This document shows, piece after piece, positions 56,720 through 57,283 of a DNA stretch of 64,000 nucleotides; positions within the stretch are counted from its first letter, which is position 1, and each line of letters starts with the position of its first letter. Position numbers and translations under genes: made by a program. The notes below the pieces were generated by a model that saw nothing but the letters and a program-made list of their open reading frames with translations, did no database searches and was not told the DNA's origin. The DNA is from Labrys monachus (GTDB lineage: Bacteria; Pseudomonadota; Alphaproteobacteria; Rhizobiales; Labraceae). The stretch lies in NCBI RefSeq assembly GCF_030814655.1, contig NZ_JAUSVK010000001.1:2561501-2625500 (forward strand), written 5' to 3'.

Positions 56720-56734
56720 GAACAAAGAGAGAAC
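56720..56734 (+). promoter_or_regulatory. LexA (SOS) box upstream of a two-gene small-protein operon
   Basis: GAAC-AAAGAGA-GAAC is a perfect direct repeat with 7-bp spacing, the alphaproteobacterial LexA consensus (GAACN7GAAC). It is 62 bp upstream of the start at 56797. Three GANTC sites follow (GACTC 56743, GAATC 56753, GATTC 56780), and a hairpin (CGAATCCG/CGGATTCG, 56752-56759 with 56778-56785, with inner CCGT/ACGG) abuts the GAGGAG ribosome-binding site. No second LexA box was found in the window. Confidence 0.75.
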
Positions 56735-56796
56735 AAAAGCTCGACTCTCTGCGAATCCGCCCGTATTTTACGGCTTTCGGATTCGAGGAGCGAGGC

Positions 56797-57045
56797 ATGA
56801 TCGACAAGAGAATTATGGAGATGGCGCTTGCCTTCAAACACCATGCCCTGGAGGCTGAAAAGAATGCGGACGATCTGATCCGCAGCGCCGACGGCGACGC
56901 GCGCATGGCGCTCGTCGGCATGATCCGCGCCGCCGGGCTCTTCAAGCTGGAGGCGGAGATGTATCGCGCCAACGTCATGACGCCGGCATTCGCCGAACTC
57001 CTTGCCGAATTGCGTGGAGAGGCCAATGCCCCTGTCCTGCACTGA
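56797..57045 (+). CDS. Conserved hypothetical small protein, SOS-box operon gene 1
   Basis: An 82-residue, probably cytosolic and all-helical protein, MIDKRIMEMALAFKHHALEA..., with repeated heptad-like charge patterns and no signal or membrane segment. Start decided by GAGGAG (56785-56790) 6 bp upstream; a longer frame from 56707 would run through the LexA box and is rejected. I do not recognise a named domain. It overlaps the next gene by 20 bp. The upstream LexA box suggests DNA-damage induction. It may be a division inhibitor-like or repair accessory small protein, but nothing shows which. Confidence 0.75.
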   Translation: MIDKRIMEMALAFKHHALEAEKNADDLIRSADGDARMALVGMIRAAGLFKLEAEMYRANVMTPAFAELLAELRGEANAPVLH

Positions 57046-57283
57046 CGCAGCGTTGCCGTCCGGCCTGGATGGGGAGGTCGAGCAGGTCATCGCCGCGTGC
57101 GGCGGCGATCCCAAGGAGGCGGTCAGGGCGCTGGTGGTTTCCAACGCCCATCTTCAGGCCGAACTGGCATCGCTCGATGCCGAGATGGCGCAGTTGCTCG
57201 CGGATGTCTCGCGCGGCTATGCCCGGGGCCATTGGGACTGGCTTCTGGAGCGGGCCGACGTCCCGATTCCCTATCTGCGCTGA
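57026..57283 (+). CDS. Conserved hypothetical small protein, SOS-box operon gene 2
   Basis: An 85-residue soluble protein. After a short variable start it has ACGGDPKEAVRALVVSNAHL, a coiled-coil-like AELASLDAEMAQLLADVS, and RGYARGHWDWLLE near the C-terminus; the GDPxEAVxAL...YARG pattern recalls small unknown proteins of rhizobia. No function is recognised. The ATG at 57026 follows GGAGAGG (57016-57022). It overlaps gene 1 by 20 bp in another frame, so the two are translationally linked. Confidence 0.75.
   Translation: MPLSCTDAALPSGLDGEVEQVIAACGGDPKEAVRALVVSNAHLQAELASLDAEMAQLLADVSRGYARGHWDWLLERADVPIPYLR

Follow-up and report, generated by a model that had tools for sequence, protein, structure and literature searches.

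Two overlapping small genes behind a LexA-type box in Labrys monachus are probably unstudied parts of the DNA damage response

The 6.92-Mb single-contig genome of Labrys monachus contains, within the 64000-nt stretch analyzed here (positions 2561501 to 2625500, the window), two overlapping genes for very short proteins preceded by a LexA-type box. The locus raises the question of whether these genes are controlled by LexA and, if so, what their products might do after DNA damage. The features that an earlier, sequence-only reading had listed between positions 56720 and 57283 were all present when we checked the sequence, and they are given here as we now describe them.

56720–56734, + strand: predicted LexA (SOS) box GAACAAAGAGAGAAC, an exact GAAC-N7-GAAC, 62 bp before the ATG at 56797
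56740–56794, + strand: leader hairpin predicted by RNA folding (−32.8 kcal/mol, z −2.0), core 56752–56785 (34 nt)
56743, 56753 and 56780 (56743–56784), no strand: three GANTC sites spanning 42 bp, not conserved in the family
56785–56790, + strand: ribosome-binding site GAGGAG, recognized by sequence, 6 nt 5′ of the ATG at 56797
56797–57045, + strand: ORF1 (P0001), 82 amino acids, start ATG 56797, a probable divergent member of the ORF2 family
57026–57283, + strand: ORF2 (P0002), 85 amino acids, with a helix, a GGD turn, a long helix and SRGYARG, a conserved family member

ORF1 and ORF2 overlap by 20 bp and, judged by their sequence, form one unit behind the LexA-type box. Their neighbors in the window, both named by eye, are an HDAC-like gene upstream and, on the opposite strand downstream, a gene for an outer-membrane protein.

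The sequence GAAC-N7-GAAC is the operator of the alphaproteobacterial LexA (SOS) regulon. The box at 56720 was, as had been claimed, the only exact one in the window; yet 1.16 are expected there by chance and 66 of 100 shuffled windows contained at least one, so that the box becomes meaningful only through its conservation. For this comparison loci were picked by protein similarity alone. A perfect box was found at 73 of 86 loci between 700 bp upstream of the match and 60 bp into it, and at 53 of 65 loci when similar proteins were removed; control patterns with spacings of 3–6 or 8–12 were found at 0 to 5 of the 86 loci, and those with altered letter order at no more than 3 of 46 and 5 of 40. 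At 37 of 46 loci from public contigs, a perfect box lay no more than 800 bp upstream and pointed the same way as the gene; at four it pointed the opposite way, about 100–130 bp upstream, and five (L089, L090, L095, L104, and L121) had none, against an expectation of 0.02 boxes per locus calculated for these 46 from boxes elsewhere in the same DNA. The other 40 loci were weaker order-level matches, drawn among the matches listed of a search with an 11-member profile; since the peptide pattern by which the 46 were retrieved is absent from all of them, the two sets represent different places. Within 900 bp and in either orientation 34 of these 40 had a box, at least one of which (L150, 784 bp away) may be there by chance, and six had none. 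Within the genus, where the 17 loci overlap partly with the 46, the box was perfect at 15 and had one mismatch at the other two. Its usual form is GAACAAA-N4-GAACA, which includes the box in the window. Thus the question of whether the box is conserved upstream of homologues, raised by the sequence-only reading, was answered positively; the boxless homologues that it would have counted against itself do exist (5/46 and 6/40), yet most homologues are boxed. Three plasmid loci of Rhizobium and Sinorhizobium were also read: two (L199 and L200) lacked a nearby box, and at the third (L201) a box lay 16 bp before a two-gene unit whose genes overlap by 4 nt.

Over the whole genome there were 129 perfect matches to the box, twofold more than the 63 matches to a reversed control pattern. 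Seventeen boxes outside the family were chosen by their A+T-rich spacers among the matches listed, and four of the proteins encoded behind them were scanned; four of the 17 boxes precede lexA, recA, ssb, and a DNA polymerase III alpha-type gene (L191), and the remaining 13 lie before phage-like or other frames. The genome encodes LexA (TIGR00498, 184.6 bits; cut-off 110.95), and its lexA gene has a box of its own, GAACACAGTATGAAC, upstream. The second ORF2-family copy in this genome also has a box, from which a small gene of another type reads away. SOS control of ORF1 and ORF2, as originally proposed, is strongly supported by the conservation of the box in the family together with the comparable boxes in front of lexA, recA and ssb; sequence alone could hardly make a stronger case, and we consider it very probable that LexA controls the ORF1–ORF2 unit.

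Several other features of boxed loci were observed. Behind lexA, and on the same strand, lies a frame that by eye resembles pentapeptide repeats (L190:1028–1771, +). At two places in the genome, L188 (3261608–3263408) and L196 (5272015–5273815), the same box, GAACAAATAGAGAAC, stands before a large frame that is the same in both over the portion compared; this frame is phage-like by eye, and the arrangement suggests a duplicated element under LexA. In a survey of leaders at 98 family loci, 69 of which had a box no more than 260 bp from the start assigned to the gene, the box of 18 leaders, all from Bradyrhizobium, ended merely 5–9 nt before the mechanically chosen start, an arrangement that suggests a leaderless transcript with the operator lying over the promoter. 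Short box-to-start distances occur at L091–L105, L112–L114, L117, L120, and L049, and the start used for L049 matches the annotation.

To what family, then, do the proteins belong? ORF2 gave 17 matches in the five genomes of the genus that were searched, two of them in its own genome, and its closest named relatives are in Labrys okinawensis, Labrys sp. KNU-23 and Labrys sp. WJW. Within the order, the 11-member profile matched 58 of 397 genomes; a 53-member profile matched 82 of the 397 (18 of 141 genera), and a single genome held as many as nine matches. When genomes were sampled evenly across the class, 6 of 385 were matched, four of them from the same order and the other two, from outside it, weakly (E 2.1e-4 and 6.7e-4). 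Within the reach of the 53-member profile, practically all members lie in the order Hyphomicrobiales. Its named holders are Labrys, Bradyrhizobium, Afipia, Ancylobacter and Xanthobacteraceae, plus one metagenome-assembled genome placed only to class. One Rhizobiaceae-type member matched 125 plasmid records, from Rhizobium, Sinorhizobium, Agrobacterium and a few other genera; tblastn searches of plasmids found nothing with either a Labrys member or an f20-type member as query, nor with ORF1. Where annotated, the family genes are called hypothetical, and 11 of the 12 plasmid places listed carry no feature in the gene table, which is incomplete. In the family alignment G27 is conserved in 52 of 53 rows and D28 in 51, and the motif [ST]xG[YFMI]xR occurs in 40 of the 53 members. 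ORF2 has both the GD turn and the SxG[YFMI]xR-type motif; ORF1 has GD alone. Differences between ORF2 and its closest relatives were commonest at third codon positions (22/17/37 for L083), a pattern as for a translated gene under selection. By these comparisons ORF2 belongs to a multi-copy family of small proteins of Hyphomicrobiales, whose genes lie mostly behind a LexA-type box.

The relation of ORF1 to this family was less direct. The 53-member ORF2-type profile, built without ORF1, found ORF1 among 3318 sequences with E 7.6e-5 (20.6 bits); BLASTP of ORF1 against ORF2 produced no alignment, and hhalign produced a weak one (probability 16, E 0.0016). With ORF1 as a single query, the 397 genomes of the order yielded six further matches at E 0.01, few above chance. 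Two of these (E 0.005 and 0.007) were ORF2-type genes, at the places of L132 and L136. A third, at L040 in another Labrys, was 33% identical (E 0.0026), was barely found by the family profile (E 2.1), and lies directly upstream of an ORF2-type gene. The L040 row runs along one strand from a box at 936 through a 68-residue family-like frame (E 0.0023 with the family profile), the ORF1 relative, the ORF2 relative and a short frame to a gene identified as SRAP by protein similarity, which begins 2 nt after the stop of the short frame. A separate ORF1 relative beside an ORF2-type gene was seen in this one other genome. We conclude that ORF1 and ORF2 probably share a common ancestor, with ORF1 as a divergent paralogue. 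Constant company of the two proteins, a point on which the sequence-only reading had asked for a test, was not what we found: ORF1 has six further matches, as against ORF2-type genes in 82 of the 397 genomes. The partners of ORF2-type genes differ between lineages, and other small partners are common.

Structure prediction for ORF2 (AlphaFold; pLDDT 85, pTM 0.56) yielded a short helix joined by a GGD turn to a single long one, and for ORF1 three helices (pLDDT 80, pTM 0.53, from just five sequences). The median pI of the family proteins was 5.1, with 43 of 53 below 6. The maximum 19-residue hydropathy of ORF1 was 1.03, and a membrane-like stretch (at least 1.6) was present in 2 of 53 ORF2-type proteins. 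Thus, the proteins look soluble, acidic, and helical. Scans against Pfam and NCBIfam gave no convincing match for ORF1, ORF2, or the 53 members, only scattered weak ones, the commonest in Pfam being AAA_assoc_2, in 15 of the 53 (best E 8.7e-4). At the start of a helix the family shares a local GD(A/P)xxA pattern with the AAA+ lid (AAA_assoc_2, replication factor C). Weak matches also included a replication factor C chain (E 2.6) and, by Foldseek, a UBA domain (E 8.4); in contrast to AAA+ lid and UBA-like helices, the family match is short and local, is not joined to an ATPase domain, and has no fold match at E 0.001. Foldseek with the ORF2 model found no fold relative in the PDB at that threshold, and we rejected relatives among the solved structures, as there was none by sequence or fold. 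Membership in a named Pfam, NCBIfam, PADLOC, or PHROG family was rejected as well for want of a convincing match; with PADLOC 0 of the 53 members matched at E 0.01. Phage records held no match to ORF2 at E 0.01, the PHROG search was negative, and the two family loci on viral contigs both have the box like the others; we rejected a phage origin on these grounds. None of the titles and abstracts searched describes the family, which is weak evidence of absence since most subscription papers lie outside that coverage.

To describe gene neighbors, we used direct protein searches at 60 loci, which represent 58 distinct places because two Labrys places entered from both sources; neighbor clustering had given 13 SRAP and 19 Ku loci with overlapping frames mixed in. 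As the flanks vary in length, all neighbor counts are lower bounds. Ku was present at at least 20 of the 60 loci, all in Bradyrhizobium and in every case on the other strand, where it either lay upstream or overlapped; some were in pieces. SRAP was present at at least 9 loci with one query and at least 10 with another, in several arrangements, and an SNase nuclease at at least 4 (three places); one example each of Ku, SRAP, and the nuclease was confirmed by Pfam. A partner family of 80–90 residues was present at at least 28 of the 60 loci, and at 26 of these 28 a perfect box lies upstream of the ORF2-family gene. The partner family is of the VTYYVALPF type (about 80–90 amino acids, for example L183:1381–1635, −) and adjoins or faces the family genes; three small partner types, one of them this type, matched nothing in Pfam at E 0.01. 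ORF1 and ORF2 themselves have no repair gene as an immediate neighbor in the window, and this genome's two SRAP genes lie a long way from either family copy.

The leader of ORF1 also drew attention, since cell-cycle gating through its GANTC sites had been proposed. Three GANTC sites do lie within 42 bp between box and start, but two of the three form the arms of the hairpin, so that the three cannot be counted as separate events. Elsewhere in the window there are two more groups of three sites, spanning 47 bp, and GANTC as a whole is depleted in the window (101 against 343 expected). Strong depletion would fit a genome with CcrM, although this is a hint only. The 34-nt hairpin at the ribosome-binding site was likewise present, and its minimum-energy fold extends further, so that GAGGAG itself is predicted to be paired; 6 of 200 shuffles folded at least as well as the ORF1 leader. 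The ribosome-binding site was predicted to be paired in both copies of this genome (z −2.4 and −2.6, with 3 of 200 shuffles each); in another fold run the leader of the second copy gave z −3.7. In the 69 boxed leaders, which exclude that of the window because its box lies farther from ORF2, 51 had no GANTC, 18 had one, and none had more. Thirty-seven family leaders gave a mean folding z of −0.42. We rejected the hairpin and the GANTC sites as family features on these two results, and the proposed cell-cycle gating is unsupported as such a feature. Since the ribosome-binding site is predicted to be paired in both copies, translational gating by the leader hairpin is possible in this species.

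How might these proteins act? We favor, with modest confidence in the explanation as a whole, the view that ORF1 and ORF2 are SOS-induced accessory proteins of DNA repair. LexA would repress the unit, and DNA damage, through the known pathway of RecA-stimulated LexA cleavage, would release it; the two soluble, acidic, helical proteins might then bind each other, or relatives, by way of their long helices and might assist repair at double-strand-break ends, abasic sites, or RecA filaments, much as DinI adjusts RecA, rather than block division. The repair-accessory function, for which the neighbors, the predicted solubility, and the copy number speak, is put forward tentatively, and the Ku and SRAP genes may merely share a damage promoter with the family. 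A bolder version, in which helical paralogues form heteromeric scaffolds that steer the repair of broken ends and abasic sites (Ku/LigD, SRAP) and the GD helix start imitates an AAA+ lid helix to dock on RarA or the clamp loader, is decidedly unlikely. DinI of Escherichia coli, a RecA modulator, is a small, acidic, LexA-controlled protein with an alpha/beta fold; the family proteins are also small and acidic but are predicted to be all-helical. DinI was not among the Pfam matches of ORF1 and ORF2 (E up to 1), nor among 25 of the 26 Pfam families listed for the 53 relatives (E up to 0.1).

The sequence-only reading had likened the pair to SidA and DidA of Caulobacter, which would make it an SOS-induced division checkpoint that halts septation while DNA is mended. 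SidA and DidA are described as small membrane proteins that stop FtsW/I/N, with sidA under LexA control (PMC4211646). The analogy holds in that both groups are short proteins of the damage response, known in their case and predicted in that of the family, and it is in keeping with the conserved box, the small size, and the Caulobacter precedent. It is weakened by the missing membrane stretch, in ORF1 as in 51 of the 53 ORF2-type proteins: the family proteins appear soluble, helical, and multi-copy, and are often beside repair genes. Up to nine copies per genome would be odd for a division brake. As the membrane helix is missing, a division role becomes less likely; we judge it very unlikely, and a role in repair fits the neighbors better. 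Overlapping small genes, variable partners, many copies, plasmid spread, and the paired ribosome-binding sites in both copies of this genome would all suit a selfish or conflict module under SOS control, either toxin-antitoxin-like or anti-phage, that has spread on plasmids and diversified. This we consider unlikely, as the PADLOC and phage-record searches were negative, merely two loci were on viral contigs, and there is no constant pair: partners vary by lineage, and here both genes are seemingly of one family. If CcrM methylation of the three GANTC sites set the cell-cycle time of LexA-free transcription, their clustering despite depletion in the window and the single GANTC in the leader of the second copy (L041) would be explained, but most family leaders have no site, none has more than one, and two of the three sites here are hairpin arms, which makes this highly improbable. 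We rejected the idea that the GAAC-N7-GAAC arose by accident in front of two frames that are unrelated to each other or spurious. The chance expectation in the window leaves room for it; it is contradicted by the box at 73 of 86 family loci with spacing and letter-order controls near zero, and by the codon-position pattern of ORF2, so that its probability is close to nil.

The preferred reading, accessory proteins of repair under LexA, places ORF1 and ORF2 within the alphaproteobacterial LexA regulon by the same operator that here precedes lexA, recA, and ssb; the two proteins themselves have no convincing Pfam or NCBIfam match. SRAP has been described together with Ku and an ATP-dependent ligase in SOS-linked neighborhoods (PMC3765255); no such small family is named at 12 of the 31 places listed for that article. 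ORF1 and ORF2 are probably unstudied parts of the DNA damage response, and probably both belong to a family of short helical proteins that has no name yet. Lists of LexA targets are generally compiled from annotations, in which the genes of this family, where annotated, figure as hypothetical; at most of the plasmid places listed they have no feature at all. Because the box is conserved, the hypothesis can be tested quickly. A family that is so often boxed in Bradyrhizobium, Labrys, and their relatives, with Ku or SRAP as frequent neighbors, gives direct access to the differences between the SOS response in soil and symbiotic bacteria and that in E. coli and Caulobacter.
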